Assembly: GCA_948567375.1 (NCBI GenBank)
Contig: OX419756.1
Location: forward strand, 687,001-751,000
DNA length: 64,000 nucleotides
From: Lunularia cruciata
Taxonomy: Eukaryota; Streptophyta; Marchantiopsida; Lunulariales; Lunulariaceae
Direction of reading: 5' to 3'
Both the position numbers and the translations under genes were made by a program. The notes beneath the pieces were generated by a model. It had not been told where the DNA came from and made no database searches. It saw only the letters and a program-made list of their open reading frames with translations. Of the stretch, positions 69 through 25,589 are shown in pieces (the first letter of the stretch is position 1; the number at the start of each line of letters is the position of its first letter).

Positions 69-791
69 CTATGGATCTGTGACCTCAATAACTCCTCCTC
101 TATGCGCTGAGAGAGAAACCACCAAAGCCTCTACAAATATACACAGAAAGGCCAATGCATGCCAACCTGGCACCATCTCCTCATATGTCTCACCATGCCA
201 ATGTGCTCCGGTCTGATACTGCTGGCTGGGACATGGGTTTCTACTCAACCCATCTGCATCACGGTTCACCACTCCAGGTCTGTGAACAACCGTGAAATCA
301 TACTCCTATAAAATCAGAGCCCACCATGCGAGCTTCCCTGAAAGCTTGTTGGACTTTATCAACCACTTCAATGGCTGATGATCAATGATGAAAGTGAAGG
401 GGTTACCAAATAGGTAACATCAGAAATGTGCTACTGCCCAAACTGCTGCCAAGCACTCTCCCTCATATGAACTATACTTCGCCTCCACTGAATTGTTGGA
501 GCGACTAGCATAGGCCACCACAAACTCCTTCTCCTCATCATCATGCTGGGTGAACACCGCTCCAAGCCCCAACATACTCCAATCAGTGTGAACCTGAAAT
601 GGTCGTCCCCTGATCAGTCTCCTCAAAATAGGAGTAGATGTCAACCTCTCCTTGAGCTCTACAAAAGCTCTCTCCTGCTCATCTCCCCAACACCACTCCT
701 GTGTAAGCTTGGTCAGCTTCGTCAAGGCCTTGGCAATGGCACTAAATCCTCTAACATAGCGGCAATAGAAGTTTGCCAACCCAAGGAATGC
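69..791 (-). pseudogene. RNase H and linker of copy A
   Basis: The RT connection and RNase H read FYCRYVRGFSAIAKALTKL, FQVHTDWSMLGLGAVFTQ (first catalytic Asp), SSYEGECLAAVWAV (catalytic Glu) and DHQPLKWL (Asp). RNase H degrades the RNA strand of the RNA-DNA hybrid. A stop near 420 splits it from VVHRPGVVNRDADGLSRNP (272-69), the conserved end of Ty3/gypsy RNase H. A stop at 69-71 then leads into the linker before integrase, which is off the window. Confidence 0.88.
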
Positions 792-1700
792 TCACACTCT
801 ACTCACATCCGTAGGCCGAGGAATACATGCAATAGCCTCCACCTTGGTTTGCTGAACACCAAGTCCTCCGGGGTAGATAGTGTGACCCAAATACTCAACC
901 TGCTCGTGGAAGAACCTACACTTCCCAGGATGTAGTTTGAGTCCATGAGATCTCAACCTCTCAAACACCTCCAACAACTGTCTCTCATGCTTCTCCACAG
1001 TAGTGCTATAGACCAAAATGTCATCAATATAACACCGAGCAAAATCCAATCCAACTAAGACCCTATCCATGACCCTCTGGAACTCAGCAGGAGCGTTCTT
1101 CAACCCAAATGGTAAGAACCTCCACTGATATAACACATCCTTGCCGTGAGGATCAATAGCCCAAAATGTTGTCTTGGACTTATCTTCCTCCCTGATTGGC
1201 AACTGATGATATCCTGCTCGAAGATCCAAAGTATTGAAGACCTTTGCATGCCCAATCGCATCAAAAATCTCCTCTGGTGTAGGCATGGCATACCGATCAG
1301 CCCTGGTCTATCGGTTGATAGGACGATAATCTCCACACATCCGCCTATCTGTATAGTTGCCATGCATATCCTTCTTGGCTGGCATCACTGTCGCTGATGC
1401 ATACTCTCCATGTGAAATCTCCACCAAACCAGCCTCAAAAAGGTCACTACTCCGGCTCTGAATCAATGTCCTCTCCATATCACTATATCAATAAGGACGT
1501 CGGAAAACAAGTGTGTTGCTAGTCAGCTCAATCCGTATACCAGGTCCCTTAGAGCACCCAAATCCTTCATACTGAAGGCAAAACAACTTGTGTGACTCCT
1601 CAAGAACCTCCAAACCCTCCGTCTTTCCTCTCCAGTAAGCTTGGGTCCAAGATATGGCTCCCAAGTATCCTCTGTAACTATAGTAGGAGTGGAAGACGTA
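792..1700 (-). pseudogene. Reverse transcriptase of copy A
   Basis: The Ty3/gypsy RT palm is clear in the 165-codon stretch 1286-792: FNTLDLRAGYHQLPI, FLPFGLKNAPAEFQRVMD and the catalytic CYIDDILVYS box near 1010-1040. The N-terminal fingers lie upstream (near 1290-1660) in other frames because of a 1-nt deletion near 1550 relative to copy B. The TGA at 792-794 before the connection domain is shared with copy B but is CAA in copy C. Confidence 0.9.
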
Positions 1701-1711
1701 CTGACTGGTTG

Positions 1712-2029
1712 CTACACTGGGCCCTTGGGAGCAATAGTGTCATGCTCCCGACCACTAGAGGTCCCAACCTCTGTGTGAAAAACTCCCTCCACTCTGGCTG
1801 CAAGCTCCACACGTCCTCTGGCTGCATCCCATGTGGACCAAGGGTGTAATCCAAGTAGCCCACGCTCACCTGGATGGACTCCAAGTAGACCACTCTCCCT
1901 AGTAGCTACTGGATGTGTCCCAAGAATACCATGTCTACTTGGTCCACCGCCCCCAGCATGTGCTTGAATCGTCTCGATAGGCACAGGGCTCACAAGTGTT
2001 CGAGTGGTGATGCCTATCAAGCGCATCCT
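1712..2029 (-). other. DNMT-RT linker of copy A pol
   Basis: About 100 residues with no recognised domain. It contains short Gly/Leu/His/Pro repeats (GILGTHP, GLLGVHP, GLLGLHP), also present in copies B and C. A stop at 1712-1714 ends the open stretch and is also present in copy B. Confidence 0.5.
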
Positions 2030-3124
2030 GCGCTACTCTGCCAAACCAAGGCTCACAATCCAGGTCAAACAGTTCAGGTCCATAGCCTGACCTAACACTT
2101 GACGCCTAGATGCCTTTGACACTACTGGAACAGCGGTAATACCGGTGCGAAAACCCATCGCCCGCTCTCTCTCATCAGCATTGGGCTCCACCAACTGCTG
2201 TAACTGTGAGTCCCAAACAAGTCCAAGTCCTCCCTCTCAAAAAGCATGAGAGCCTGGGAAACTCATGAGTGTAGGAAATGGAGCTCTAGGCTGTCCAACT
2301 AGGTTCACCACTGCCATAGGTGACCTATCAGCCACTACCACTGTTTGAGACTGACGCGCAGCATCCAAGATATCATCAACAAGAATGTGGTCTAGTCGCT
2401 GAATCCCATCATAACTACGTTGTAGAACCTCTCTGGGTAAAAGGTTCGTCCACCAAAGGCGAAGACGATGAGCCCGTGATCCCACTCTGGCTGCATCTAA
2501 CAATACAGCAGGTCCCATCCATGAATGGACCTGATGTGTACTCGCCACCACTCTAGTGCAAGAATCACCCATCAATGGAACGTTCTCCAAAAGGTAAGCT
2601 GGAGAAACAGACTGATGAACCTAGAGATGTCGTAATATCTGTAACATCTCCCAAAACACACCAGAACGAGGATCCTGAAGACCCAAACCGTGGCCCGCAC
2701 GTGTATGTCCCTGACATGGCCATCCAGAAATCACCAAGTGAACAGGCCCATGTCTCTCTAGGTCATGCGCTCCTAGTAAGGAAATATCTCCTGGTAAGGC
2801 CTTCTGGTAACCTCTGACTGCTGACATCGGTAATAACTCCGGATACCGATAGGCCAAGTGTGCCACATGATGTAGAGAGACTCGCCTAGCAGTCTCATCT
2901 CTCTCTACATACAAGTACCTCTGTACTCGGATACCCGCCTGTAACACCGCAACTAGTCCGGTGCTGATCCCACCAAACAACTCCAATAGGCATATCCCCT
3001 CTACTGGGTACTGCCAAGCAATGAGTGTGGTATCCAGAGGTGTCAAAGCAATCGCCTCTGGAGGCTCATCCTCACACTCATCCCTTGATGGTACAAAGGC
3101 TCCACTCCAAGCCTGCTGCACCAA
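2030..3124 (-). pseudogene. C5-cytosine DNA methyltransferase domain of copy A
   Basis: C5-methyltransferase motifs appear in order. Motif I (AdoMet binding) is CLLELFGGISTGL. Motif II-like is YLYVERDETARRV. Motif IV with the catalytic cysteine is LVISGWPCQGHTRAG, encoded near 2700-2735. Motif VI is YLLENVPL. Motif VIII-like is GSRAHRLRLWWTN. The motif IX-X region is NADERERAMGFRTG...VLGQAMDLNCLTW. About 350 residues is a complete catalytic domain with no added reader domain. It would transfer a methyl group to cytosine in DNA. It is fused in frame between protease and RT. Breaks are a TAG at 2621-2623 (CAG in copy B), a TGA at 2237-2239 shared by all three copies, and a TAG near 2037. Whether it is DNMT1-like (PCQG) or DRM/DNMT3-like cannot be settled by eye. 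Confidence 0.85.
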
Positions 3125-4222
3125 CTAATCTGCATGCTGCTGCAATGCCTCCTCTGAACTCCACAATGGAACATCCAAGGTGGATGGAACAATCCCACTT
3201 GTACTCCAAAGTCGAGTGATCTCCTCTGGTACTGGAGTATCCTCTGCATGGGCATTCCCCTCCAACAAGTCACCATGCCAAGTAACTACACCACTGAAAG
3301 CTAAAACTGATGTTGCCATGGTCCCGGACTGTAGTGAGCCAAGACTGCCACTACTGAAGCATACTGGTAGGCGACATACCCATCCCTCACCAGACTGCCA
3401 ACCAGGTCTATAAGAGGATGTCTCCTCCCAATATTCAATGCTGAAACCCATAGGGTATAACACTGCTCCCCCAACTAGCACATCATATGACTCAGCTATC
3501 GTTGCAATAGCCTGAGCTCTCACCACTGAGCTATCAGTCGGATGACCAGGCTGAACCTGGACAACAAGCTCTCCACGTGTGATGTGCTATGTCGAACCAC
3601 CACCAAGAGATGTCTAGATCTGAAATGGACACCTCTCCACATCGGTCTTCCGTAACTCCAGACCGACAACTGCAGCCTTCCCCAACATAAGGGGCTGCGC
3701 ACCAGAGTCTAAGAAGACTCTCTGTGGTGTATAGACCTTCCCTAAAGGTCCCACCAAACAAAAAATCCCCCTCTGGTTATCCAATAGGACAACACCAGGT
3801 GTAAACCGCGCTCTCTCAAAGGCCGGTCTAGCTGGCAACTCCTCCAGTCTAGCCGCTGCTGCCTGCCATAAACCACTGGTCGCTGAACGGATCCCATGCT
3901 CCTCAACCAAGTTAGCTCCACTACCAACCACCTCTGCTCTAGCAATAGGAACTGCACCATCCCTACTCTCACACAACGTGGCAGCCAACCAGAATATTGG
4001 GGCTGGGTCAACTCCCAATGTAAACATGTCACTGGCTGAAAACAAAGGATGCCGCATAATCAGCTGAGCCGCCCCCAACATCATGCTAGACTCAGTCTGT
4101 GTAGTAGTAGGTGGTTGACTAGCAAGTAGTCCATCATGTACTCCATCACCACCTACCACACTTGCACTGGGATGTCTAGGAACCATGGATGTTGTCTGCA
4201 ATGCCTTAGATGGCGTGAAAGA
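3125..4222 (-). pseudogene. Aspartic protease region of copy A
   Basis: The retroviral-type protease active-site motif is seen in VFLDSGAQPLMLGKA, encoded near 3690-3720. A hydrophobic IAESYDVLVGGAVLYPMGF segment follows about 90 residues later, as in Ty3/gypsy proteases. The enzyme would cleave the gag-pol polyprotein. Upstream sequence (about 130 residues) is element-specific and unrecognised. Stops occur at 4223-4225, at about 3614 and at 3125-3127. The last (TAG) is shared with copy B, whereas copy C has a glutamine codon (CAA) there. Confidence 0.75.
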
Positions 4223-4559: not shown

Positions 4560-5785
4560 GCTCCTCTACTACCTGCCATAGCAACCCTACCACTCCGTAA
4601 CTCCGGGTGTAGGTCAAAACACCGGTCACTAGTGTGACCAAATCTGTGGCAATGCTCACACGGCCTCTGTGCTGGCTGTGATGCACCAGAGGTATCAGGT
4701 CCGCTGCCCTAAGTACACTCTCTCCTATGGTGAGGTCCACCACAAGTCCAACAAGCAACACCACCACTCACTGGCTGTTGTTGACCCGAAAATGAGGGTA
4801 AGGGTCTAACTCCACTAGGCCCTCCACTCGCTCCATAGGATCTAGGCTGTCCACCCTATCCTCGAAAACCAACTGGGCGTGGTGCACTCTGCTGCACTCT
4901 AGAAGAAGTCACAACCGTGGATGAGGTCTCTCTACCAAATCCAGTTGTCACCACTCTCTCCTCCACCATGTTGAGCTCAATACGCTCAGCCAAACCAAAG
5001 ACTACTGCCAAAGTGGGCGAAGTAGCCTGCAACAACATAGCATCACGAACTCTACGTCGCAACTCCCTGTCCAGTATCCCATACCAAAACTGGACTGCCT
5101 AGGCCTCAATAACTCCTTGAGTGAAATTGATCAGCCGCCTCATGCGAGTGTATGCCTCGCATAGGCTCTCTCCAGCCTTCCGCTGGAACTCCTGCAAGCT
5201 CCTCAGCTTGTCAGTCCGCACTCTCTGGTAGTTCTGCCTCAAACATAGGAAGAACTCCACCATGGGGTTAAACCCCGGTACCACACCACCTCTTGCAGTG
5301 GTACCTCCACTCGTAGTAGCACTATCTCTAGCTAGTGCACCTTCACTAGCTCCACCAACACTACTCGAGCTAGAACTTGTGGGTACAGCCGATCTACTCC
5401 TAGCCACCGAGCCTGAAGTAATGGAGACATAGTGTGGAGACCAATACTGTCTCCATAACTCAATCTCCTCTAAATGAGCTCTCCTGAACTCATGGTAGTC
5501 ATCCATCGGTGGACCCTCCAAGTGCTGAAACAACCCCTTCCATGCCATGAAGGGTGTGAACAAAGTCGCATTCCTCATCTGCTGCAGATCACACCAACTA
5601 TCAAACTCCTGGATGAAGCCATCCAACTCAATGGTACCCACTGTACCAGAGTAACGCCTAGGGCCTTTGGAGGCCCCATAAATCTCATCCATGTCCCACA
5701 ACAACGGTGCGGACACACCAAGTGCACTCTCAATTGAATCAGCTCCTGTGTTGAACTCCAACTCAGAGTCAATCTCCTCCCTCAC
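4560..5785 (-). pseudogene. gag of copy A: capsid domain plus two zinc knuckles
   Basis: The 228-residue open stretch 5785-5099 carries a retrotransposon-gag capsid segment near its end (NYQRVRTDKLRSLQEF then GESLCEAYTRM). A TAG at 5099-5101 interrupts it. The same frame continues to 4856, stops, and resumes through two zinc knuckles near 4660-4780: CWTCGGPHHRREC (a CX2CX3HX4C variant) and CEHCHRFGHTSDRC (canonical CX2CX4HX4C), with a stop between them. Gag packages element RNA in cytoplasmic particles. Serine-rich linkers separate the parts. The upstream frame (REEIDSELEF) has no certain start codon. Copy C has a decayed homologue; copy B has none. Confidence 0.8.
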
Positions 5786-7210: not shown

Positions 7211-7667
7211 TGTAATCAGATTGCTTAACATTTTCAACTCAACTCAACTCAACTCAGATCAGTACTTGATCTATCACTCTATAAACTGCCAACAACTGGG
7301 CACTGATTACAGTCAAGCCACACCCACTCAAGCATAGAGAATCCAGGTGACGCTCGCCGGCCTCTGTCCACCATAGCCAGGAACTCGAAGGCTCAACATC
7401 AGAGAAGTGAGCTCTTTGGAGCTCACTTCGAAACTATACCCCCCTGAACTCGAGCTAGCACGGGAACCCTAACGGTCTCGCTGACGGCACACTCGACGGT
7501 GCAAACGGTGCAAAGTGATGGTGGGCCCCACCGTGAAGTCAGTACCTTGAACACCAAATTAGACTGTCGGAAAGTAGTCCCTGAGAAACTACTAGAATAA
7601 CTCTAACTACTATCACTGGAACTCCAGTGTCCGAGCAACTAGATGCGGAACTACAAGTGGCGTGACA
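7211..7667 (-). repeat. Terminal repeat A1 of copy A (457 bp)
   Basis: On the minus strand this starts TGTCACGCC and ends GATTACA, giving the TG...CA ends of LTRs. It is homologous to 10389-10839 and 17430-17874. Inside, at 7404-7429, is an 11-bp inverted repeat (GAAGTGAGCTC / GAGCTCACTTC) with a 4-nt loop, next to a TATA-like GGGGGTATAG. The arms are conserved in all three A repeats although the loop differs. No copy of the 103-bp B repeat adjoins its outer edge. Confidence 0.85.
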
Positions 7668-10388: not shown

Positions 10389-10839
10389 TATCACGCTATT
10401 TGTAGTTCCGCATCTAGTTGCTCCGACACTGGAGTTCCAGTGATAGTAGTTAGAGTTATTCTAGTAGTTTCTCAGGGACTACTTTCCGATAGTCTGATTT
10501 GGTGTTCGGGGTACTGACTTCACGGTGGAGCCCACCATCACTTTGCACCGTTCGCACCGTCAAGTGTGCCGTCAGCGAGACCGTTAGGGTTCCAGTGCTA
10601 GCTCGAGTCCAGGGGGTATAGTTTTGAAGTGAGCTCCAGAGAGCTCACTTCTCTGATGTTGAGCCTTCGAGTTCCTGGCTATAGTGGACAGAGGCCGGCG
10701 AGCGTCACTTGGATTCTCTATGCTTGAGTGGGCGTGGCTTGACTGTAATCAGTGCCCAGTTGTTGGCAGTTTATAGAGTGATAGATCAAGTACTGATTTG
10801 AGTTGAGTTGAGTTGAAAGTGTTAAGCAATCTGATTACA
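10389..10839 (+). repeat. Terminal repeat A1 of copy B
   Basis: 451 bp, TATCACGC...GATTACA, roughly 95% identical by eye to A2 at 17430-17874 and homologous to A1 of copy A. It starts TA where the other copies start TG, probably a point mutation. The conserved 11-bp-arm hairpin is at 10626-10651. Confidence 0.85.
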
Positions 10840-11537
10840 TCAGAGAAGTGAAGTCAGGGGGAAATCGGGTGTGGATCGTGGTAGCTCGATTCAAGTTCTG
10901 TGTTTCCCTAGTGTGCAGAAGCTCGTTCAGTTGATGCAGATTTGGCAGTTAGGCGGAGGGTGTGCGGAAGCGCTGGCCAAATTTCAAGCAAAGAAGGAGC
11001 AAATTTTGAGTAGTGTTGTGATTTTGAGCTTAGGAGGTGAAGGCAGGACCAATCTGTTGCGAGTTGGGCTCAAAAAGTGAAATTGAAGGTGGAGTTGGGA
11101 AGCTCTTCTCATGAAATTGTGATTTGGAAAAACCTATTTTGTCAATTTGGCTCGAGTGGAAAGTTAGTGGGGAATTTGGCGGACATCCATCTTTAGGGTT
11201 TACGTCAAATTTTATGTCAAATTTTGGGCCAGAATTGGAGGAGTTTCACTGTTTGGCCAGATTTGGAGAAGTTTTGCTAGTTTGGAGGAGTTTCGCAGAT
11301 TTGGAGAAGTTTCGCCAATTTTGCGAGTTGGGCTTAGAAAATGAAATTGAAGGTGGAGTTGGGAAGCTCTTCTCATGAAATTGTGATTTGGAAAAACCTA
11401 TTTTGTCAATTTGGCTCGAGTGGAAAGTTAGCGGGGGATTTGGTGGTCATCCATCTTTAGGGTTTACGTCAGATTTTGGGCCAGAATTGGAGGAGTTTCG
11501 CTGTTTGGCCAGATTTGGAGAAGTTTTTCACCCTATT
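10840..11537 (+). other. Leader of copy B with a 264-bp tandem duplication
   Basis: It begins TCAGAGAAGTGAAG, a weak partial match to an initiator-Met primer site. A unit starting GAGTTGGGCT occurs at 11061 and again at 11325 (period 264 bp; the second copy is partial, to about 11530). Both contain GAAATTGAAGGTGGAGTTGG and short TTTGGAGAAGTTTTGC-type repeats. Copy A has a single copy of this unit. No coding function is seen. Confidence 0.7.
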
Positions 11538-12626
11538 CTTTCATGCTATCAGAGGTATTGCAGACGACATCCATGGTTCCTAGACGTCCCAGTGCAGGTG
11601 TGGTAGGTGGTGATGGAGTACATGATGGACTACCTGCTAGTCAGCCACCTGCTACTACACAGATTGAGTCTAGCATGATGTTGGGGGCGGCTCAGCTGAT
11701 TATGCGGCATCCTTTGTTTTCAGCCATGTTTACATTGGGACTTGACCAGCCCCAGTGTTCCGATTGGTTGCCACGTTGTGTGAGAGTAGGGATGGTGCAA
11801 TTCCTACTACTAGAGCAGAGGTGGTTGGTAGTGGATCTGACTTGGTTGAGGAGCATGGATCCGTTCAGCAACCAGTGGGTTGTGGCAGGCAGCAGCGGCT
11901 AGATTGGATGAGTTGCCAGCTAGACCGGCCTTTGAGAGAGCACGGTTTACACCTGGTGTTGTCCTGTTAGATAACCAGAGGGAGATCTTTCGTTTGGTGG
12001 GACCTTCAGGGAAGGTCTATACACCACAGAGAGTCTTGTTAGACTCTGGTGCGCAGCCCTTTATGTTGGGGAAGGCTGCAATTGTTGGTCTGGAGTTACG
12101 GAAGACCAATGTGGAGAGGTGTCCATTTCAGATCCAGACATCTCTTGGTGGTGGTTTGACACAATACATCATACGTGGAGAGCTTGTTGTCCAGGTTCAG
12201 CCTGGTCATCCGACTGATAGCTCGGTGGTGAGAGCTCAGGCTATTGCAATGATAGCTGAGTCATATGATGTGCTAGTTGGGGGAGCGGTGTTATACCCCA
12301 TGGGTTTCAGCATTGACTATTGGGAGGAGACAGCCTCTTATAGACCTGGTTGGCAGTTTGGTGAGGGACGGGTATATCGCCTACCAGTACATTTCAGTAG
12401 TGGCAATCTTGGCTCACTACAGTCCGGGACCATGGCAGCATCAGTTTTGGCTTTCAGCGGTGCTGTTACTTGGCCTGGTGAGTTGTTGGAGGGGAACGCC
12501 CATGCAGAGGATACTCCAGTACCAGAGGAGATCACTCGGCTATGGAGTATGACTGGGATTGTTCCATCCACCTTGGATGTTTCATTGTGGAGTTCAGAGG
12601 AGGCATTGCAGCAACATGCAGATTAG
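11538..12626 (+). pseudogene. Aspartic protease region of copy B
   Basis: The 249-codon open stretch 11880-12626 contains VLLDSGAQPFMLGKA (active-site DSGA, near 12034-12080) and IAESYDVLVGGAVLYPMGF, as in copy A. The upstream part (from 11543, in another frame) matches copy A's pre-protease segment but loses frame between about 11725 and 11880. It ends at a TAG (12624-12626) shared with copy A; copy C reads CAA. The protease would mature the polyprotein. Confidence 0.75.
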
Positions 12627-13733
12627 TTGGTGCAGCAGGCTTGGAGTGGAGCCTTTGTACCATCAGGGGATGAGTGTGAGGATGAGCCTCCAGAGGCGAT
12701 TGCTTTGACACCTTTGGATACCACACTCATTGCTTGGCAGTACCCAGTAGAGGAGGTATGCCTATTGGAGTTGTTTGGTGGGATCAGCACCGGACTAGCT
12801 ACGGTGTTACACGCGGGTATCCGAGTACAGAGGTACTTGTATGTAGAGAGAGATGAGACTACTAGGCGAGTCTCTCTACATCATGTGGCACACTTGGCCT
12901 ATCGGTATCCGGAGTTATTACCGATGTCAGCAGTCAAAGGTTACCAGAAGGCCTTAGCAGGAGACATTTCCTTATTGGGGGCGCATGACCTAGAGAGACA
13001 TGGGCCTGTTCACTTGGTGATTTCTGGATGGCAATGTCAGGGACATACACATGCGGACCGCGGTTTGGGTCTTCAGGATCCTCGTTTTGGTGTGTTTTGG
13101 GAGATGTTACGGATACTACGACATCTCCAGGTTCATTAGTCTGTTTCTCGAGCTTACCTTTTGGAGAACGTTCCTTTGATGGGTGATTCATGAACTAGAG
13201 TGGTGGCGAGTACACATCAGGTCCATTCATGGATGGGACCTGCTGTATTGTTAGATGCAGCCAGAGTGGGATCACGGGCTCATTGTCTTCGCCTTTGGTG
13301 GACAAACCTTTTACTCAGAGAGGTTCTACAGCATAGTTATGATGGGATTCAGCGACTAGACCACATTCTTGTTGATGATATCTTGGATGTTGCGCGTCAG
13401 TCTCAAACAGTGGTAGTGGCTGATAGGTCACCTATGGCAGTGGTGAACCAAGTTGGACAGCCTAGAGCTTCATTTCCTACACTCATGAGTTTCCCAGGCT
13501 CTCATGCTTTTTGAGAGGGAGGACCTGGACTTGTTTGGGACTCACAGTTACAGCAGTTGGTGGAGCCCAATGCTGATGAGAGAGAGCGGGCGATGGGTTT
13601 TCGCACCGGTATTACCGCTATTCCAGCAGTGTCAGAGGCATCCAGGCGTTAGGTGTTAGGTCAGGCTATGGACCTGAACTGTTTGACCTGGATTGTGAGC
13701 CTTGGTTTGGCAGAGCAGCGTAGGATGCGCTTG
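12627..13733 (+). pseudogene. C5-cytosine DNA methyltransferase domain of copy B
   Basis: Motif I LLELFGGISTGL is encoded at about 12761-12797. Motif II-like YLYVERDETTRRV follows. Motif IV reads ISGWQCQGHTHAD near 13020-13050: the catalytic Cys is kept but the preceding Pro, present in copies A and C, is Gln. Motif VI YLLENVPL is near 13155-13178, motif VIII-like GSRAHCLRLWWTN near 13269-13305, and motif IX-X NADERERAMGFRTG ... VLGQAMDLNCLTW at 13568-13700. Stops are at 13137-13139 (CAG in copy A), about 13191 (TGC to TGA), 13512-13514 (TGA in all copies) and about 13651. The first 170 codons are open. The domain sits in frame with protease and RT, so methyltransferase would have been released from, or acted within, the polyprotein. 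Confidence 0.85.
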
Positions 13734-14099
13734 ATAGGCATCACCACTCGGACACTTGTGAGCCCTGTGCCTATCGAGACGATTCAAGCACATGCTGGGG
13801 GCGATGGACCGAGTGGACATGGTATTCTTGGGACACATCCAATAGCTACTAGGGAGAGTGGTCTACTTGGAGTCCATCCAGGTGAGCGTGGGCTACTTGG
13901 ATTACACCCTTGGTCCACATGGGATGCAGCCAGAGGACGTGTGGAGCTTGCAGCCAGAGTGGAGGGAGTTTTTCACACAGAGGTTGGGACCTCTAGTGGT
14001 CGGGAGCATGACACTGTTGCTCCCAAGGGCCCAGTGTAGCAACCAGTCAGTACGTCTTCCACTCCTACTATAGTTACAGAGGATACTTGGGAGCCAGAT
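13734..14099 (+). other. DNMT-RT linker of copy B pol
   Basis: Continuation of the pol frame with GILGTHP, GLLGVHP and GLLGLHP repeats and a TAG at 14037-14039, the same place as in copy A. No domain is recognised. Confidence 0.5.
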
Positions 14100-14960
14100 C
14101 TTGGACCCAAGCTTACTGGAGAGGAAAGACGGAGGGTTTGGAGGTTCTTGAGGAGTCACACAAATTGTTTTGCCTTTAGTATGAAGGATTTGGGTGCTCT
14201 GAAGGGACCTGGTATAAGGATTGAGCTGACTAGCAACACACCTATTTTCCGACGTCCTTATCGATATAGTGATATGGAGAGGACATTGATTCAGAGCCGG
14301 AGTAGTGACCTTTTTGAGGTTGGTTTGGTGGAGATTTCACATGGAGAGTATGCATTAACGATAGTGATGCCAGCCAAGAAGGATATGCATGGCAACTATA
14401 CAGATAGGCGGATGTGTGGAGATTGCCGTCCTATCAAGCGACAAACCAGGGCTGATCGGTATGCCATGCCTACACCGGAGGAGATTTTTTATGCGATTGG
14501 GCATGCAAAGATCTTCAGTACTTTGGATCTTCGAGCAGGATATCATCAGTTGCCGATCAGGGAGGAAGATAAGTCCAAGACAACATTTTGGGCTATTGAT
14601 CCTCACGGCAAGGATGTGTTATATCAGTGGAGGTTCTTACCATTTGGGTTGAAGAACACTCCTGCTGAGTTCCAGAGGGTCATGGATACGATCCTAGCTG
14701 GATTGGATTTTGCTAGGTGTTATATTGATGACATTTTGGTCTATAGCACTACTGTGGAGGAGCATGAGAGACAGTTGTTGGAGGTGTTTGAGAGGTTGAG
14801 ATCTCATGGACTCAAACTACATCCTGGGAAGTGTAGGTTCTTCCACGAGCAGGTTGAGTATTTGGGTCACACTATCTACCCCGGAGGACTTGGTGTTCAG
14901 CAGACCAAGGTGGAGGCTATTGCATGTATTCCTCGGCCTACGGATGTGAGCAGAGTGTGA
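14100..14960 (+). pseudogene. Reverse transcriptase of copy B
   Basis: A 270-codon open stretch covers nearly the whole Ty3/gypsy RT: RIELTSNTPIFRRPYRYS, MCGDCRPIKRQT, FSTLDLRAGYHQLPI, FLPFGLKNTPAEFQRVMD, CYIDDILVYS (catalytic YIDD at about 14720-14733) and KLHPGKCRFF. It ends at a TGA (14958-14960) shared with copy A and replaced by CAA in copy C. It copies element RNA into DNA. This is the best-preserved RT of the three. Confidence 0.92.
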
Positions 14961-15707
14961 GCATTCCTTGGGTTGGCGAACTTCTATTGCCGCTATGTTA
15001 GAGGATTTAGTGCCATTGCCAAGGCCTTGACGAAGCTGACCAAGCTTACACAGGAGTGGTGTTGGGGAGATGAGCAGGAGAGAGCTTTTGTAGAGCTCAA
15101 GGAGAGGTTGACATCTGCTCCTATTTTGAGGAGACTGATCAGGGGACAACCATTTCAGGTTCACACTGATTGGAGTATGTTGGGGCTTGGAGCGGTGCTC
15201 ACCCAGCATGATGATGAGGAGAAGGAGTTTGTGGTGGCTTATGCTAGTCGCTCCAACAATTCAGCGGAGGCAAAGTATAGTTCATATGAGGGAGAGTGCT
15301 TGGCAGCAGTTTGGGCAGTAGCCGATTTCCGATGTTACCTATTTGGTAACCCCTTCACTCTCATCACTGATCATCAGCCATTGAAGTGGTTGATAGAGTC
15401 CGACAAGCTTTCAAGGAAGCTTGCACGATGGGCTCTGATTTTACAGGAGTATGATTTCATGGTTGTTCACAGACCTGGAGTGGTGAACCGTGATGCAGAT
15501 GGGTTGAGTAGAAACCCATGTCCCAGCCAGCAGGATCAGACCGGAGCACGTTGGCATGGTGAGACAGATGAGGAGATGGTGCCAGGTTGGCATGCATTGG
15601 CCTTTCTGTGTATATTTGCAGAGACTTTGGTGGTATCTCTCTCAGCGCATACAGGAGGAGTTATTGAGGTCACAGATCCAGAGAGTGAAGATATTGGTAC
15701 AGTTTAG
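14961..15707 (+). pseudogene. RT connection and RNase H of copy B
   Basis: The open stretch 14973-15707 (244 codons) shows FQVHTDWSMLGLGAVLTQ, SSYEGECLAAVWAVADF, LITDHQPLKWL and VVHRPGVVNRDADGLSRNP, the canonical Ty3/gypsy RNase H signature. The catalytic Asp, Glu and Asp residues are present. It ends at TAG TGA just before the integrase. Confidence 0.9.
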
Positions 15708-15719
15708 TGAGATATTCAT

Positions 15720-16811
15720 GATGATGTCTTAGTGATGGACTATCTTCGCACTGGTGTTGTGGGTGGCACAGTTGGGGCCAAGGAGAGAGACCGTGTTCTT
15801 CAGCGAGCCAGACGGTTCAGATTGGAGGGTAGACACCTTTTGCGTGTATGGGAGGATGGTAGAGTGCGAGTAGTACCACTTCCATCACAGAGACCACAGT
15901 TGGTCCGTCATGCTCATGAGGAGCTAGGACATTTTGGAGTAAAGCGTACATATAGCTTACTCCAGAGTCATTATTGGTGGTGCGGTATGCAGACTAAGGT
16001 ACAGCAGTTTGTTGCCAGATGTATGGTTTGTGACCGAGTTAGAGCATCATTCAATGCTCCTACGCCACAGTTACACCCATTACCTATCATGGGATTGGGT
16101 TACCGTTGGAGTTTGGACTTCACAGGACCTTTATCGCTGACTGTGAGACATCATCGGTATGTTTTGGTGATGGTGGAGCACTTCTCTAAGTGGATTAAGT
16201 TGGTGGCACTTCCTGACAAGTCTAGTGAAGAGACAACTTACTCGTTCTTGGATCAAGTTCTTAGTCATTTTGGTGCACCAACTGAGGTTTTGACTGATCA
16301 GGGTACAGAGTTCTTGGGAGAGTTTCAAGTCTTGTGTGACAAGGCTTTGATTGATCATCGTACTACATCCCAAGATCACCTTGAGGAAGATGGCTTAGCA
16401 GAGAGAGTGGTTCAGACGGTGAAGAGAGGATTGCAAAAGTATGGTTTGCAGAGAGGCCACTTGGGAGATTGGGATCTCTAGTTACCTTGGTTGGCCATGG
16501 GCTATCGGTTCAGCCGGCAAGCCTCCTTAGCATCCTTCTCTCCATACTTTCTACTCTATGGACGAGATCCAGATTTACCTGCAGCCATTTGTCGAGATGC
16601 TACTGTAGTTTTGGACTTGGATGACCCCGATGTGTGGATGAGCGCATGTTCTCAAAGGGCAGAGATCTTTCGGAGAGTGATGCCGATGGCCTTTGAGAAC
16701 TTGGCGATTGCTCAGCATAGAGATACTTTACGCTATGCTACCATTCAAGGAGGAGGTTATAGATCCTCGATTCGTCGATTTCATCTAGGCGACTATGTAT
16801 ATCTACAGTAG
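15720..16811 (+). pseudogene. DDE integrase of copy B
   Basis: The HHCC zinc finger reads HAHEELGHFGVKRTY with CMVCDRV. The core reads YRWSLDFTGPLSLT (first Asp), EVLTDQGTEFLGEF (second Asp) and EEDGLAERVVQTVKR (Glu, about 34 residues after the second Asp). One TAG at 16479-16481 splits core from C-terminal region. The latter (16491-16808) has FSPYFLLYGRDPDLP, typical of Ty3/gypsy integrases. A further TAG at 16809-16811 precedes the PHD segment. Integrase joins element DNA to the chromosome. No tyrosine recombinase was seen despite the split repeats. Confidence 0.9.
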
Positions 16812-17153
16812 ACAGCACCGACGACACTTGATGTTTCTACAGGCCGCACTATCTTGAGGGTGCGCGAGATTTTGCCATCTGGAGTCCTTGTGTCAGAAGG
16901 ACGTGATGGTGTTGTTTGGAAGGATCATGTGTGCAATTGTGCGCCATGCCACATCCCAAACATTGATGGTACTATGGACCCAAGCTTGGCACTTGTATGT
17001 GCAGGCTTAAGGTGTATGTTATGTGGCTCTTCTGGTGGAGCTGCTACTATGTTAGTGTGTGATAGCTGTTGGAGAGGATGGCATATGGCATGTATGACTC
17101 CTCCCCTCACGGTGGTTCCTCAGGGACAGTGATTATGTCCTAGATGTACTTGA
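16812..17153 (+). pseudogene. C-terminal PHD finger of copy B pol
   Basis: Following the integrase in frame, about 30 residues after RILPSGVLV-type SH3/GPF-like sequence, is a C4HC3 PHD finger. It reads LRCMLCGSSG, MLVCDSCWRGWHMACMTPPL, VVPQGQ and LCPRCT (17013-17147). All eight metal ligands are present. The usual Trp before LCPRC is a stop (TGA 17130-17132, TAG in copy C), a TGG decay. The natural end is the TGA at 17151-17153. PHD fingers bind histone H3 tails. Here it occupies the position of the chromodomain in chromoviruses, so a role in targeting integration is a reasonable inference. Confidence 0.8.
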
Positions 17154-17320
17154 CCTATAGCTAGTTCATTCATTATATGGTATAGATTGCAGACAGGCGA
17201 CTAACGATGGGGCTCCATAGCACCCGGCCTCCTGATCTTTGCCCATTAGAGGGTATACCATATACTTAGAGTAGATGGCTATCTGGAGTTAGAGGGACTT
17301 AACCGCCAGCTAGGGGGGCA
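17154..17320 (+). other. 3' untranslated segment and polypurine tract of copy B
   Basis: Non-coding sequence conserved in copy C (25440-25589). It ends in a purine-rich TAGGGGGGCA at 17311-17320, immediately followed by B1. This tract is the best plus-strand primer candidate. It sits before B1, not directly before A2. Confidence 0.6.
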
Positions 17321-17423
17321 ATTGTGGCACTTTAGAGTCTATGTATGACTTATGTATGAGTTGTGCTTCTATAGTGTATGATGTTGACAGTGATGTATGT
17401 TGTGTAGCGATGTATATACGCAC
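17321..17423 (+). repeat. Internal repeat B1 of copy B
   Basis: 103 bp, ATTGTGGCAC...TATACGCAC. It is identical to B2 (17875-17977) except for one base. A six-base spacer (AATAGC) separates it from A2. Confidence 0.85.
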
Positions 17424-17429
17424 AATAGC

Positions 17430-17874
17430 TGTCACACCATTTGTAGTTCTGCATCTAGTTGCTCGGACACTAGAGTTCCAGTGATAGTAGTTAGAGTTAT
17501 TCTAGTAGTTTCTCAGGGACTACTATCCGACAGTCTGATTTGGTGTTTGGGGTACTGATTTCACGGTGGGGCCCACCGTCACTTTGCACCGTTCGCACCG
17601 TCGAGTGTGCCGTTAGCGGGACCATTAGGGTTCCAGTGCTAGCTCAAGTCCAAGGGGGTATAGTTTTGAAGTGAGCTCCAGAGAGCTCACTTCTCTGATG
17701 TTGAGCCTTCGAGTTCCTGGCTATGGTGGACAGAGGCCGGCGAGCGTCACTTGGATTCTCTATGCTTGAGTGGGTGTGGCTTGACTGTAATCAGTGCCCA
17801 GTTGTTGGCAGTTTATAGAGTGACAGATCAAGTACTGATCTGAGTTGAGTTGAGTTGAGTTAAGTAATCTGATT
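17430..17874 (+). repeat. Repeat A2 of copy B
   Basis: About 445 bp, TGTCACACC...AATCTGATT, homologous to A1 (10389-10839). It includes the conserved hairpin at 17668-17693. It is followed without a gap by B2 instead of host or copy C sequence. Confidence 0.85.
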
Positions 17875-17977
17875 ATTGTGGCACTTTAGAGTCTATGTAT
17901 GACTTATGTGTGAGTTGTGCTTCTATAGTGTATGATGTTGACAGTGATGTATGTTGTGTAGCGATGTATATACGCAC
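17875..17977 (+). repeat. Terminal repeat B2 of copy B
   Basis: Second copy of the 103-bp B unit, forming the right end of the insertion with the next four bases (GACA). It is followed by GACCC, the target duplication and the resumed leader of copy C. Confidence 0.8.
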
Positions 17978-17981
17978 GACA

Positions 17982-18420: not shown

Positions 18421-19570
18421 CCCATGAAAGAGGAGATTGACTTTGAGTTGGAGTTTGGCACAAGAGCTAATTCAATTGAGAGTGCACTTGGTGTGTCCGC
18501 ATTGTTGTTGTGGGACAATGGATGAGATTTATGAGGCCTACAAAAGCCCCAAGCATTTCTTTGGTATAGTGGGTACCATTGAGTTAGATGGCTTCATGTA
18601 GGAGTTTGATAGTTGATGTGATCTATAGCAGATGCAAAACCTAAGTTTATTCACATCCTTCATGGAATTTCAACACTTGGAGTGTCCACCAATGGATGAT
18701 TACCATGAGTTCAAGAGAGCTTACTTGGAAGAGATTGAGCTATGGAGACAATATTGGTATCCAAACTATATCTCCATCATTTCAAGCTTGGTTTCTAGGA
18801 GTCGATGGGCTGTACCCATGAGTTCTAGCTCTAGTAGTGTTGGTGGATCTCTTGGAGATGGTGCTACTATGAGTAGAGTTACTACTACATGAGGTGGTTT
18901 AGTACCGGGGTTTAAACCCATGGTGGAGTTCTTCAATGTTTGAGGCATAACTACTAGGAGGTGCGGACTGACAAGTTAAGGAGCTTGTAGGAGTTCCAAT
19001 GGAAGGCTGGAGAGAGCTTACACAAGGCATACACTCACAAGAGACGACTGATCAGTTTTACTCAAGGAGTTACTGAGGCCTAGGTAGTCCAATTTTCATA
19101 TGGGATATTGGACAAGGAGTTGTGACATAGAGTCTGTGATGCTATGTTATAGGCTACTTCACCTACTTTGGTAGTGGTCTTTGGTTTGGTTGAGCATATT
19201 GAACTCAACATGGTGGAGGAGAGAGTGGTGACATTTGGATATGGTAGGGAGACCTCATCCACAGTTCTTACTTCTTCTAGGTGCAGCAGAGAGCACCATG
19301 CCATGTTGGTTTCCGAGGATAGGGTAAATAGCCCAGATCCTATGGAGTGAGTGGAAGGCCTATATAGCTAGATCTTTACCTTCATTATTGGTCAGCAGTA
19401 GCCAGTGAGTGGTAGTATTACTTGTTGGACTTATGGTGGACCTCACCATAGGAGAGATTGCACTTAGGCAGTGGATCTAGTACCTCTAGTGCATCACAAC
19501 TAGCATAAAGATAGTGTGAGGATCCACATCTAGTAGGAGTGCAGTACTTGCCCTTACTTTTGATACAACC
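18421..19570 (+). pseudogene. gag of copy C
   Basis: Homologous to copy A gag (EEIDFELEFGT, then PPMDDYHEFKRAYLEEIELWRQYW at 18690-18755, then a serine-rich stretch). It is broken by many stops. The zinc-knuckle region is at about 19410-19510, where CWTYGGPHHRRDC has lost one Cys to Tyr. Confidence 0.75.
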
Positions 19571-19864
19571 ATGACTACACGGATTGAGCAATTGTAGCAA
19601 AGATTGGCTAGTATGGCCATAGCTCAAAGGAGATCAGATTTGGGTGCTTAGGCTTCCACCTCATATGCAAGTGATAGAGACATCTAAGACTTCATGTGCG
19701 GAGCAACATAGGTGGATGCATCCATCATAGTGACTAGGAATGCAATACGTGCTCTTGAGCCTAGAGGAGCATTAGTGGAGTTGGACCCATAGAGAGGAGA
19801 GGTTGGGAGATAGGTCAGACTTCCTCAGTCTTTCATGCTCTCTAAGGCCCTATAAACATCATTC

Positions 19865-20925
19865 ATGGCTCTTAAACTACCTAGTGCAAGTGTGATAGGT
19901 AGTTATGTGGTGCATGATGGACTACCTACTAGTCAACCAACTACTACTACACAGATTGAGTCTAGCATAATGTTGGGAGCGGCTCAGTTGATTATGCACT
20001 TTCCATTATTTTCAATTAGTGATATGTGTACATTGGGAGTTGACCTAGCTCCAATGTTCCGGTTGGCTGCCATGCTTTGTGAGAGTAGGGATGATGTGGT
20101 CCCTAATACTGGAGCAGAGGTGGTTGAGGAGCATGGGATCCACTCAACAACGAATGGTTTATGGCAAGCAGCAGCGGCTAGATTAGAGGAGTTACCAACT
20201 AGATTGACCTTTGAGCAAGCACGGTTTACATTGGGGTTGTCCTATTGGATGATAACCAGAGGGGTATTTTTTTTGTTTGGTGGGACCTTCAGGGAAGGTC
20301 TATACACCACAAAGGGTCTTACTAGACTCTAGTGTGCAGCCCTTTATGTTGGGGAAGGTTGCAATTGTTGATTTGAATTTGCTGAAGACCAATGTGGAGA
20401 GGTGTCCATTTTAGATCCAAACATCTCTAGGTGATGGTTCTACACAATATATCACATGTGGAGAGCTTTGTTGTTCAGATTCAGCCTAGTCATACAACTA
20501 GCAGCTTTGTGGTGAGAGCTCAGGCTATTGCAACAATGGCTGAGTCATATGATGTGTTAGTTGGAGGAGTAGCATTGTACCCCGTGGGTTTCAATATTGA
20601 CTATTGGGAGGAGACAACCTCCTATAGACCAGGTTGGTAGTCAGGTGAGGAATGGCTATGTTGCCTACCTATATGCTTTCATAGTGGCAATCTTGGCTCA
20701 CTATTGTCCAAGACCATGGTGGCGTCAGTTTCAACTTTCAATGGTTTTGTTGCTTGGTCTAGTGATTTATTGGAGAGGAATGCCCATGCAGAAGATACTC
20801 CAATACCAAAGGCGATCACTTGGATTTGGAGTAGGAGTGAGATTATTCTATCCACATTAGATGTTCTTTTGTGGAGATCAAAGGAAGCATTGCAACAACA
20901 TGTAGATCAATTAATGCAATAGGCT
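19865..20925 (+). pseudogene. Protease region of copy C
   Basis: VIGSYVVHDGLPTSQP and MLGAAQLIMHFPLFS (19890-20015) match the pre-protease segment. The active-site region near 20318-20370 is frameshifted (VLLDSSVQ-like, with the Gly of DSG changed). AESYDVLVGGVALYPVGF follows at about 20530-20590. It is not functional. Confidence 0.7.
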
Positions 20926-22010
20926 TGGAGTGGAGCCTTTGTACCACTAGGTGACCAGTGTGAGGATGAGCCTCTAGAGTCAATCACCTTGACACCTCTA
21001 GATACACTCATTGCTTGGCAGTATCCAATAGAGGAAGTATGTCTATTGGAGTTGTTCAATGGGGTTAGCCTCAAACTAACTACGGTACAACATATGGGTA
21101 TACGAGTACAGAGGTACTTGTATGTGGAGAGAGATAAGATCACTAAGCAAGTCTCTCTACATCATATGGCACACTTGGCCTATTGGTATCTTGAGTTATT
21201 ACTGATATCAACAATTAAGGATTACTAGAAGACCCTTCCAACAAACATTTCTTTGCTAAGGACGCAGGATTTGGAGAGATATAGTCCCATTCATTTGGGG
21301 ATTTCTAGATGGCCATGTCAAGGACATACATGCAGTGGCCGAGGTTTGGGTCTTCAAGATCCTCACTCTGGTATGTTTTGGGAGATGTTACGGATACTAT
21401 GACATCTCCAGGTTCATCAATCCATTTCTCCAACTTAGATTTTGGAGAACATCCCTTTGATAGGTGATCTCATACCTAGGTGGTGGCAAGTATGCATTAG
21501 GTCAATTCTTGGATGAGACTTGCCATGTTGTTAGATGTAGCCAGAGTGGGATCATGGGCTCACCATCTTTGTCTTTGGTGGACAAACCTCTTACCTAAAG
21601 AGGTTCTATAATGCGCTTATGATGGGATTCAACAACTAGACCACATCATTGTTGATGACATCTTAGATATTGGACATTAGTCTTAGACAATGGTAGTGGT
21701 TGATAGGTCACCTATTGCAGTGGTGAACCTAGTTGGACAGCCCAAAGCCACTTTTCCCACACTTATGAGTTTCCCAAGCTCCCATGCTTTTTGAGAGGGA
21801 GATCTTGGACTGGTTTGGGACTCATAATTATAGTAGTTGGTGGAGCCCAATGCCGATGAGAGAGAGTGGGTGATGGGTTTTTCCACTAGTATTATTGCTG
21901 CTCTAGTAGTGTCAGAGACATCCAAACATCAAGTGTTAGGTCAGGCAATGGACCTGAACTATTTGACTTGGATTGTGAGCCTTGGTTTGGCAAAGCAGAG
22001 TAGGCTGCAC
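20926..22010 (+). pseudogene. C5-cytosine DNA methyltransferase domain of copy C
   Basis: Motif I is degraded (LLELFNGVSLKL, 21040-21075). YLYVERDKITKQV follows. Motif IV SRWPCQGHTCSG (near 21300-21335) keeps the Pro-Cys pair. Motif VI is LENIPL, and GSWAHHLCLWWTN-like motif VIII follows. The end reads NADEREWVMGFSTS and VLGQAMDLNYLTWIVSLGL (21850-21990). It shares the TGA (21792-21794) found at the same codon in A and B, but has CAA where A and B carry the protease-DNMT TAG. Confidence 0.8.
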
Positions 22011-22319
22011 TTGATAAGCATCACCACTCAAACACTTGTGAGCTTTGTGCCTATTGAGATGATTCAAGCACATGTTGGGGGCAATGGACCAAGTGGAAAG
22101 GGTATCCTTGGGACACCACCAGTGGCTACTAGGGAGAGTGGTCTACTTGGAGTCCATCTAGGTGAGTATGCTCTACTTGGATTACACCCTTGGTCTACTT
22201 GGGATGTAGCTAAAGGATGTATGGAGCTTGCAGCTAGATAAGAGCAAGTTTTTCACATTGAGGTTGGGACCTCTAGTGGTTATGGGCATGACACTATTGC
22301 TCCCAAGTGCCCAGTGTAG

Positions 22320-23240
22320 CAGCCAATCAATACATTTTCCACTCCTATGACAATTACAAAGGATACTTTGGAGCCAGATCTGGGATCCAAGCTTACAAGA
22401 GAAGAAAGACAGAGAGTTTGGTGGTTCTTGAGGAGCTACATGAGTTGTTTTGCCTTCAAGATGTAGGATTTGGGTCCTCTAAAAGAACTTGGTATTTGGA
22501 TTGAGTTGACTAGCAATACATCAATTTTTTGACATCCCTATTGATATAATGACATGGAGAGAGCATTGATTCAAAGCTGGAGTAGAGACCTTTTTGAGAC
22601 TGGTTTGGTAGAGATTTCACATAGAGAGTATGCATCAACTATAGTGATGCCAACCAAGAAGGATATGCATGGCAACTGCATAAATAGGCAGATGTGTGGA
22701 GATTACCATCCTATCAATAGCTAGCCTAGGGCTGATCGGTATGCCATGCCTACACCAGAGGAGATCTTTGATGTGATTGGGCATGCAAAGGTCTTTAGTA
22801 CTTTGGATCTTTGAGCAAAGATATCATCAATTACGAATCAGAGAGGAGGATAGGTCCAAGACAACATTTTGGGCTATTGATCCTCACGGTAAGGATGTGT
22901 TATATCAGTCGATGTTCTTACCATTTGGGTTGAAGAATGCTCTTGTCGAGTTCCAAAGGGTCGTGGATAAGATCCTAGTTGGATTGGATTTTGCTTGGTG
23001 GGTATATTGATGACATTTTGGTCTATAGCACTATTGTGGAGGAGCATGAGAGACAATTGTTGGAGGTGTTTGAGAGGTTGAGATCTCATGGACTCAAATG
23101 ACATCTTGGGAGGTGTAGCTTCTTCCAAGAGCAAGTTGAGTATTTGGGTCACACTATCTACCCTAGAGGACTTGGTGTTCATCAGACCAAGGTAGAGGCT
23201 ATTGCACGCATTCCTTGGCCTATGAATGTGAGCAAAGTAC
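22320..23240 (+). pseudogene. Reverse transcriptase of copy C
   Basis: RT blocks remain readable (FSTLDL, YHQLRIREEDRSKTTFWAID, FLPFGLKNALVEFQRVVD). A one-base insertion at about 23000 throws the YIDD box out of frame (the nucleotides TATATTGATGACATT are still there). Confidence 0.85.
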
Positions 23241-23990
23241 AAGCATTCCTTGGGTTGGAAAATTTCTATCGCCACTATGTTAGAGGATTTAGTGCTATTG
23301 CCAAGGCCTTGATGAAGCTAACCAAGCTTACACATGAGTGGTGTTGGGGAGATGAGCAAGAGAGAGCTTTTGTAGAGCTCAAGGAAAGGTTGAAATTTGC
23401 TCCTATTGGAGGAGACCAATTAGAGGATGACCATTTTAGGTTCACATTTATTGGAGTATGTTGAGGCTTGGAGTAGTGCTCACCTAACATGCCAATGAGG
23501 GGAAGGAGTTTGTAGTGGCTTATGCTAGTTGCTCCAAAAATTTAGTAGAGGTAAAGTATAGTTCATATGAGGGAGAGTGCCTTGTAGCAATATGAGCAAT
23601 AGTTCATTTTTGATATTACCTATTTGGTAACCCTTTTACTCTCATCATTGATCATCAGCCATTGAAGTGGTTGATGGAATCCAACAAGCTTTCAGGGAAG
23701 CTTGCACAATGGGCTTTGATTTTATAGGAGTATGATTTCACAGTTATTTACAGACCTGGAGTGGTGAACTATGATGCAGATGGGTTGAGTAGTAACCCAT
23801 GTCCCAACTAGCAAGATCAGACCAAAACACATTGGCTGGGTAAGACATATGAAGAAATGGTGCCAAGTTGGCACGCATTTGCTTTTCTTTGTATATTTTC
23901 TAAGGCTTTGGTGGTATCTCTCTCAATACATACAAGAAGAGTTATTGAGTTCATAGATCCAAAGAGTAGAGATAGTGGTATAGTTCAATG
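23241..23990 (+). pseudogene. RNase H of copy C
   Basis: VQAFLGLENFYRHYVRGFSA at 23235-23295 is in frame, without the stop seen in A and B. DHQPLKWLMESNKLSGK and the DADGLSSNP end (near 23780) follow. The region is frameshifted around 23400 and has several stops. Confidence 0.82.
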
Positions 23991-24012
23991 AGACATTCAT
24001 GATGATGTCTTA

Positions 24013-25085
24013 GTGATAGACTACCTTCGTATTAGTGTTCTGGATGGCACAATTGGGACCAAGGAGAGAGACTATGTCCTTCAACAAGCCAAACGGTTCA
24101 GATTGGAGGGTAGACACCTTCTTTGTGTACGGGAGGATGGTAGAGTGCGAGTAGTACTACTTCCATCTTGGAGCCCACAATTGGTCCGTCATGCTCATGA
24201 GGAGCTAGGACATTTTGGAGTAAAGCATACATATAGCTTACTCTAGAGTCATTTTGGTGGCATGGTATGCAGACCAATGTACAGTAGTTTGTTGCCAAAT
24301 GTATGGCTTGTGACCAAATTAGAGCATCATTCAATGCTTACACTATAGTTACATTCATTACCTATCATGGGATTGGATTACCAATGGACTTTGGACTTTG
24401 CTAGACCTTTACTATTGATTGTGAGACATCATTGATGTGTTTTGGTGATGGTGGAGTATTTTTCCAAGTGGATTGAGTTGGTGGCATTTCTTGACAAGTC
24501 TAGTAAAGGGACAACTTACTTGTTCTTGGATCGGGTTTTTGGTCATTTTGGTGCACCAGTTGAGGTTTTGACTGATCAAAGTATAGAGGTCTTGGGAGAG
24601 TTTCAGGTCTTGTGATTAGACTTTGATTGATCATTTACTACCTCCCTAAGATCACCATAAGGAATATGGCTTAGTAGAGAGTGTGGTTTAGATAGTGAAG
24701 AGAGGATTGCAAAAGTACAGTTTGCAGAGAGGCCCCTTGGGAGATTAGGATCTCTAGCTACCTTGGTTGGCCATGGGCTATTGGTCCAGCCGGCAAGCCT
24801 CCTTAGCATCCTTCTCTCTTTACTTTCTACTCTATAGACGAGATCCAAATTTACTTGTAGCCATTTGTCAAGATGCTACTATAGTTTCGGAATTGGATGA
24901 TTAGATATATGGATGAGCATATATTCTCAATGAGCAAAGATCTTTTGGAGAGTGATGCCAATGGCCTTTGAGAACTTAATGATTCCTCAGCATAAGGATA
25001 CCTTACATTATTCTACCATTCAAGGAGGAGGTTATAGACCCTCAATCCGTCAATTTCATCTAGGTGACTGTATATCTATAGTAGA
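24013..25085 (+). pseudogene. Integrase of copy C
   Basis: HAHEELGHFGVKHTY (24190-24235), the core Asp regions (LDFARPL, VLTDQSIEVLGEF) and the FSLYFLLYRRDPNL end are recognisable. They are broken by a deletion near 24252 and by stops. Confidence 0.8.
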
Positions 25086-25093
25086 CAACACCA

Positions 25094-25440: not shown

Positions 25441-25589
25441 CTCTATATGGCATAGATTGCAGATAGGCGACTAACAATGGGGCTCGATAGCACCCGGCCT
25501 CCTGATCTTTTGCCTAACATAGGGTACCATATACTTGGAGTAGATGGCTATCTGGAGTAAGAGGGACCTAACTGCCAATTAGGGGGACA

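Follow-up and report, generated by a model that had tools for sequence, protein, structure and literature searches.

The Element Copies in the Window

The window, i.e., the whole 64 kb stretch of DNA analysed here out of a host genome of 566 Mb in 74 contigs, contains three copies (A, B and C) of a Ty3/gypsy-type family carrying a DNA cytosine methyltransferase (DNMT). Copy A lies on the minus strand and is truncated by the window edge at base 1. At its 5' end is an A1 repeat (7236..7667, 94.7% identical to 17430-17861), followed by gag (4787..5689, 94% to the gag segment of L009, an open copy described below), the protease (PR) region (3047..3778, 93% to L009), a stop-interrupted DNMT3-type methyltransferase (1964..3046, 94.7% to the L009 DNMT and matched by Pfam), a UAG with CAACCA after it at the junction of DNMT and reverse transcriptase (RT) (1712..1714, from junction inspection and a motif scan), and RT (693-1505) with RNase H (303-692), together 303..1505 and placed by segment alignment.

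Copy B, on the plus strand, is an entire inserted unit of 7.6 kb (10389..17981, delimited by its ends and by flank alignment) from which part of gag is absent, and it is flanked by the 4-bp target repeat GACC (10385-10388 and 17982-17985). It was inserted into the copy C leader: its flanks, once joined, align to the copy A leader without a break. It comprises an A1 repeat (10389..10837, 94% to A2 at 17429-17875), the protease region (11973..12704, segment alignment), a stop-interrupted DNMT (12705..13787, 92.2% to L009), a junction UAG followed by CAACCA (14037..14039, located as in copy A), RT (14247-15059) with RNase H (15060-15449; jointly 14247..15449) and a DDE integrase with H2C2 and rve (15837..16439), both from Pfam and segment alignment, a PHD finger (16992..17150, 90.6% to the PHD of L012), and a terminal block (17321..17981) that repeat comparison divides into B1 17321-17423, A2 17429-17875 and B2 17875-17981. 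Copy C (plus strand) retains gag with its CCHC part and the protease region in decayed form (18521..20985, segment alignment), a frameshifted DNMT (20989..22067, 69-72% to L009), the junction UAG followed by CAGCCA (22317..22319, again from junction inspection and motif scan) and, over 22527..25693, RT, RNase H (to 23730), integrase (24118-24612), PHD finger (25265-25420) and a B repeat (25590-25693), assigned by segment alignment and repeat comparison.

The first-pass annotation had reported three in-frame DNMT copies (2030-3124 on the minus strand, 12627-13733 and 20926-22010); a DNMT3-type domain is indeed present in all three, but each is broken by stops or a frameshift. Copy A keeps the motifs and has 3 stops within 2030-3124, while copy B is interrupted by 4 stops and lacks the Pro of its PCQ motif. 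Pfam DNA_methylase matched the first piece of copy A with 22.6 bits (cut-off 22) and gave no match on the first piece of copy B or the second piece of copy A. The three window copies are pseudogenes, dead members of a large Ty3/gypsy family.

The window also holds a fragment of another Gypsy-type element (8379-8861, plus strand, with open reading frames at 8223-9620), 29.6% identical to the integrase segment of the DNMT element, a near-perfect palindrome of 35 bp (27062-27096), a direct repeat pair about 77% alike (33997-37886 and 48834-52426), and an exon of a PIF-type (phytochrome-interacting factor) gene (42109-43602, minus strand). Among named proteins the best matches of this exon, at 45%, are to the mosses Physcomitrium and Ceratodon, with Sphagnum behind at 34-35%, and one further protein reaches 70%. 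On this exon the analysis placed the host, a land plant, among the mosses.

Open Copies in the Host Genome

A genome search with PF00145, in which 123 of 2,161 candidates were scored, returned at least 123 matches, many within long open frames (the longest listed being 1,428 aa), and 17 stretches were retrieved from it for inspection. Open copies of the element exist in the host genome. In L009 and L010 the 1,428-aa frame consists of gag, CCHC, protease and DNMT. Pfam scored PF00145 at 31.2 bits in L009 and 30.4 bits in L012, so the domain does match DNA_methylase, the check that the first-pass annotation had proposed; the gag match of both was below the cut-off, and past PF00145 both show RVT_1, RNase H, H2C2, rve and a C-terminal PHD finger (42.6 bits in L009, 39.1 bits in L012). 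The order of the element is gag-PR-DNMT, a single UAG, and RT-RNaseH-integrase-PHD finger, with both halves in the same frame. The closest solved RT in the PDB is that of Ty3 (E 1e-71), which bears out the placing of this DNMT inside a Ty3/gypsy element.

When up to 3 mismatches were allowed, at least 3,111 DNMT-RT junctions were counted in the host genome, and the reversed junction pattern, used as a control, occurred 0 times. A full-length DNMT (at least 88% identity) was found in 29 of 30 loci chosen by the junction alone, L070 being the one without an aligning DNMT. Among 38 distinct copies, 8 of which had been chosen for long frames, 9 have an open DNMT and 6 an open RT; in the junction-chosen loci only, DNMT is open in 2/30 and RT in 3/30. 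Scans of viral contigs with the A1 repeat (2 stretches) and of genome contigs with the L009 domain (26 stretches) gave no relative.

The UAG Junction and Predicted Readthrough

The DNMT is located between PR and RT, on the gag-PR side of the single in-frame UAG that separates it from RT, and the full Pol would be reached only via readthrough. The first description, of a DNMT in frame between protease and RT, was right as to position, but the domain belongs to the gag-PR frame ahead of the UAG and not to the RT frame. The 17 junctions tabulated represent 15 distinct ones (L005/L021 and L006/L024 are each one place), and all 15 fit UAG-CARYYA, as UAG-CAR followed by CCA in 14 and by CUA in 1 (L014). 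With the stop position left free, UAG is present in 719 of 734 exact junctions genome-wide, a pattern that fixes CAR-CCA and tests the stop only; the 100 of these 734 that were listed have 97 UAG, 2 UAA and 1 UUG. On both strands of the window, TAGCARYYA occurs 3 times, always at the DNMT-RT junctions of copies A-C, and CARYYA comes directly after 10 of the 6,365 stop triplets counted over all frames. According to the consulted parts of PMC5382211 and PMC3542737, tobamoviruses have UAG followed by CARYYA, the sequence found here, as their type I readthrough signal; the motif was not found in PMC8310308.

Since UAG-CARYYA is conserved after the DNMT, this enzyme is expected together with Gag and PR, and RT by readthrough; judged from sequence, the DNMT is probably made with Gag and the protease, and RT, integrase and PHD finger through readthrough only. 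The leaky stop is not general: DNMT continues into RT in the protein of Closterium and in some Marchantia gene models, other Marchantia gene models end after DNMT, and in relatives with the DNMT after RNase H, the DNMT, RT and integrase share one frame. We found such leaky-stop anatomy described nowhere in the literature searched, which excluded most subscription journals and bioRxiv, and it provides a testable handle on the dose of DNMT versus RT.

Split Repeats, Integration and Comparison with Known Elements

The repeats of copy B are laid out as A1-coding-B1-A2-B2. In 5 other copies examined, the complete A-coding-B-A-B set was present in 4, and the fifth has B1-A2-B2 plus just 77 bp of A; in the copy at C8:22.294-22.304 Mb, for example (about 9.95 kb), A1 and A2 are 99.1% identical and B1 and B2 100%. 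The element termini are TGTC...GACA. Ten copies were inspected for ends and both ends were located in 7; 4-bp target repeats flank 6 of these (GAGG, CATA, ACTC, GACC, GAAA and ACAA; chance of observing them 2e-14), the exception being the copy at C1:44.2 Mb. From these 4-bp target repeats, the TGTC...GACA ends and the insertion of copy B in copy C it follows that insertion proceeds as in LTR elements, via a DDE integrase, and not as in DIRS. DIRS retrotransposons are not known to leave a target-site repeat, and the H2C2 and rve integrase together with target repeats in 6/7 copies exclude our element from that group. In the C8:22.3 Mb copy (L043), the inner joint of B1 and A2 (C8:22303655-22303660) is GACA-GC-TGTC, which resembles two element ends joined with an extra GC and hints that the DDE integrase may use an intermediate that is circular or joined end to end. 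Two extra bases at the joint are also seen at window positions 17423-17429.

KnitGypsy-Dnmt3 of Klebsormidium nitens has a DIRS-like split repeat layout, as described in the consulted part of de Mendoza et al. 2018 (PMC5890265), and the comparison with Klebsormidium elements that the first-pass annotation had drawn holds in the DNMT3 class and the DIRS-like repeats. The element of the host genome shares with it, as far as that part describes it, the Gypsy domain set (Ty3/gypsy RT, RNase H and DDE integrase, from Pfam and the PDB match to Ty3), a DNMT of the DNMT3 class, unrearranged and placed within the coding part, and the repeats (copy B, with 4 of the 5 other copies complete and 1 partial). 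It is therefore a variant of the KnitGypsy-Dnmt3 kind, abundant in the host genome and present in other bryophytes. Unlike KnitGypsy-Dnmt3, it resides in a land plant. Its DNMT lies on the Gag-PR side of UAG-CARYYA, and it has a PHD finger and 4-bp target repeats, three features that KnitGypsy-Dnmt3, compared by its description, may or may not share. SymbioDIRS-Dnmt3 of Symbiodinium, also a split-repeat retrotransposon, likewise encodes a DNMT of the DNMT3 class, but it carries the DIRS tyrosine recombinase instead of a DDE integrase with target repeats (PMC5890265).

Retrotransposon DNMTs were previously reported from dinoflagellates and one charophyte (PMC5890265, in the text consulted), Sarre 2025 speaks, in the portion available, of DNMT3 within retrotransposons as reported in streptophytes, and an opinion paper considers transposon-encoded methylases absent from land plants (PMC6338049, likewise in part). 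No land-plant report of the PR-DNMT-RT order was found in the literature searched (most subscription journals and bioRxiv were outside its scope), so that the order appears uncatalogued there. The earlier statement that no such DNMT is known in land plants holds for this literature but not for the databases, as proteins of Marchantia, Riccia, Calypogeia and Sphagnum match; with these and the alga Closterium, the element is not peculiar to this host.

Class, Conservation and Source of the Methyltransferase

The element DNMT belongs to the DNMT3 class, is unrearranged and has the key residues; the catalytic Cys, the Glu-Asn and two Arg are invariant across seven distant elements. Assignment to DRM, CMT or MET1 was rejected, as DNMT3 ranks first, DRM2 lower and bacterial enzymes lower still. 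By motif, the host genome has two DNMT3 genes (L001, L004), two rearranged DRM genes (L002, L022) and two other fragments (L003, L023). The host DNMT3 and DRM genes resemble the element DNMT as C5-methyltransferases of the DNMT3 class and differ from it in that the former are intron-split and the latter rearranged, with scores of 30, 14 (a partial row) and 19 bits.

Host DNMT3 scores 30 bits against the element DNMT, which scores 813 against itself, and by this score a recent capture of the host's own DNMT3 is unlikely. The same distance speaks against the idea that a host DNMT3 gene, or a processed copy of it, simply landed beside a retroelement by chance. The fact that all 3/3 window copies are broken would suit such an accident, but with at least 3,111 junctions in the host genome, and with relatives inside elements of other bryophytes, Closterium and further contigs, we regard it as extremely improbable. 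Six DNMT3-like enzymes of tailed phages, which unlike the element DNMT are free-standing genes, scored 66, 55, 52, 50, 47.0 and 42 bits, 4 of them higher and 2 lower than human DNMT3A (47.4 bits). In AU tests, neither a clade of elements and host DNMT3 (p 0.40), nor elements with eukaryotes (p 0.39), nor elements with phage-like enzymes (p 0.13) was rejected, so that the DNMT may have come either from a host DNMT3 or from a phage-like enzyme.

Between the elements of the host genome and Marchantia, identity is 69% in DNMT and 68% in RT. Variants were compared with L009 in 34 copies (L015/L047 counted as one place; L046, L054 and L070 excluded), and the shared ones are poorer in amino-acid changes than the rare ones, both in DNMT (p 0.03) and in RT (p 0.004); among copies, selection is weaker on DNMT than on RT. 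Because the DNMT is as conserved as RT and because of this variant pattern, the comparison argues for a DNMT kept by selection. Transitions relative to L009 amount to about 8% at CG, 6% at CHG, 0.7-1.4% at CHH and 1.7% at A/T. This excess is the signature left by methylation at CG and CHG, whichever enzyme carried it out.

PHD Finger and Proposed Function

The nearest solved relatives of the PHD finger are those of CHD4, KMT2D, KMT2C, PHF12, DPF3, KAT6A, KDM5B and PHF21A. Several such PHD fingers read histone H3 with unmodified K4, like the ADD domain of DNMT3, and by analogy it may be guessed that the finger of the element does so too. Chromoviruses are Gypsy elements with a C-terminal chromodomain, and our element resembles them in having a chromatin-reader type of domain at the integrase end; it differs in that this domain is a PHD finger, and with no chromodomain in the Pfam matches of L009 and L012, it was not classed with them. 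Among 46 relatives of the element DNMT, PF00628 was found in 13, and no PHD was seen in the Marchantia or Sphagnum models.

Cytosine methylation silences plant transposons, and an element that keeps its own methyltransferase is a paradox. To hypothesize, ribosomes would mostly terminate at the UAG and yield Gag-PR-DNMT, with a minority reading through into the full polyprotein, so that particles would receive the DNMT in the same dose as Gag but only little RT-integrase. The DNMT would then add 5-methylcytosine to the new cDNA during reverse transcription, and the integrase would insert the methylated DNA while the PHD finger reads histone H3 at the target; a methylated incoming copy could pass for host heterochromatin. 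Self-methylation of cDNA is what we infer as the best account of the DNMT function from its sequence, and PHD-guided integration is inferred likewise. Taken as a whole (an element of the KnitGypsy-Dnmt3 kind, Gag-dose DNMT by a leaky stop, self-methylated cDNA and PHD-guided insertion), this is the explanation towards which we lean, with some reserve.

Several points weigh against this explanation: host methylation alone is enough to explain the CG and CHG decay; the KnitGypsy domain had no activity in yeast tests in which the SymbioDIRS domains were active, a result called inconclusive (PMC5890265, in the part consulted); the DNMT is under weaker selection than RT among copies; and neither the leaky stop nor the PHD finger is seen in all relatives. 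The first two would agree with a DNMT kept for binding, or for work on RNA or chromatin, where Gag-PR-DNMT would coat or condense nucleic acid and methylation of the copies would be left to the host, and the Gag side of the stop would indeed give the DNMT a structural dose. Still, the catalytic Cys, the Glu-Asn and two Arg, invariant in seven distant elements, exceed what binding by itself needs, and we think such a role rather unlikely. De Mendoza and colleagues also named the possibility that the DNMT tempers the element, i.e., that new copies are marked for silencing, damage to the host is limited and the element persists. That copies are numerous but seldom open (2/30 junction-chosen loci have an open DNMT) and that their CG and CHG decay is strong are in line with tempering; self-limitation is, however, hard to maintain among competing copies, and as the present data do not separate it from self-methylation for entry, we give tempering a low probability and retain self-methylation as our preferred account.

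Relatives in Other Plants and Algae

A protein search with the DNMT region gave 46 proteins, including those of Marchantia polymorpha, Sphagnum fallax and Closterium, and a profile search gave 190, of which the 120 listed add Calypogeia fissa, Riccia sorocarpa, Marchantia paleacea, Sphagnum troendelagicum and S. tenellum. The named matches among the 46 and the 120 of 190 listed are 35-72% identical, some across part of the domain only, and no Klebsormidium protein is among them. The PR-DNMT-RT order, which the first-pass annotation had proposed to seek in bryophyte genomes, was found in bryophyte relatives. Three domain orders occur: PR-DNMT before RT (bryophytes, Closterium and further relatives), RT-RH-DNMT-INT, often with PHD, and DNMT-RT-RH-INT (P0047). 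The 19 tree rows spanning these orders form one DNMT clade (support 95/94); 4 of them (P0048, P0059, P0064 and P0106) are short proteins in which a retroelement setting is not visible.

The first reading had been that the acquisition is either older than land plants or was transferred. Because Closterium has the PR-DNMT-RT order and the DNMTs of the elements compared form one clade, the sequences favour an element lineage older than land plants. The tree groups the Sphagnum copy with Marchantia rather than with the element of the host genome (100/83), a pairing of the Sphagnum and host-genome rows is not rejected (p 0.096), so that transfer may or may not have taken place. A tentative joint reading, which we consider possible but doubtful as a whole, is that a retrotransposon lineage predating land plants acquired an enzyme of the DNMT3 type in a single event, with a donor that may have been phage-like rather than its host, retained it for replication in mosses, liverworts, charophytes and further hosts, and moved it among three places in the polyprotein; in bryophytes a virus-type leaky stop would set the DNMT at Gag dose, and the particle would deliver pre-methylated DNA to chromatin chosen by the PHD finger of the integrase. 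Presence in bryophytes, including Marchantia, brings the question to genetically tractable land plants.

In P0024, P0025, P0026, P0028, P0036 and P0042 an extra region follows the PHD finger; a DPWAGTG...TSPWFA-like stretch within it is reminiscent, in its sequence, of a second methyltransferase; a Pfam scan of the post-PHD region in P0025, P0028, P0036 and P0042 returned no named domain. P0051 is labelled as a Candidatus Obscuribacterales MAG, yet it is 50% identical to the element DNMT and is probably a misbinned eukaryotic contig.
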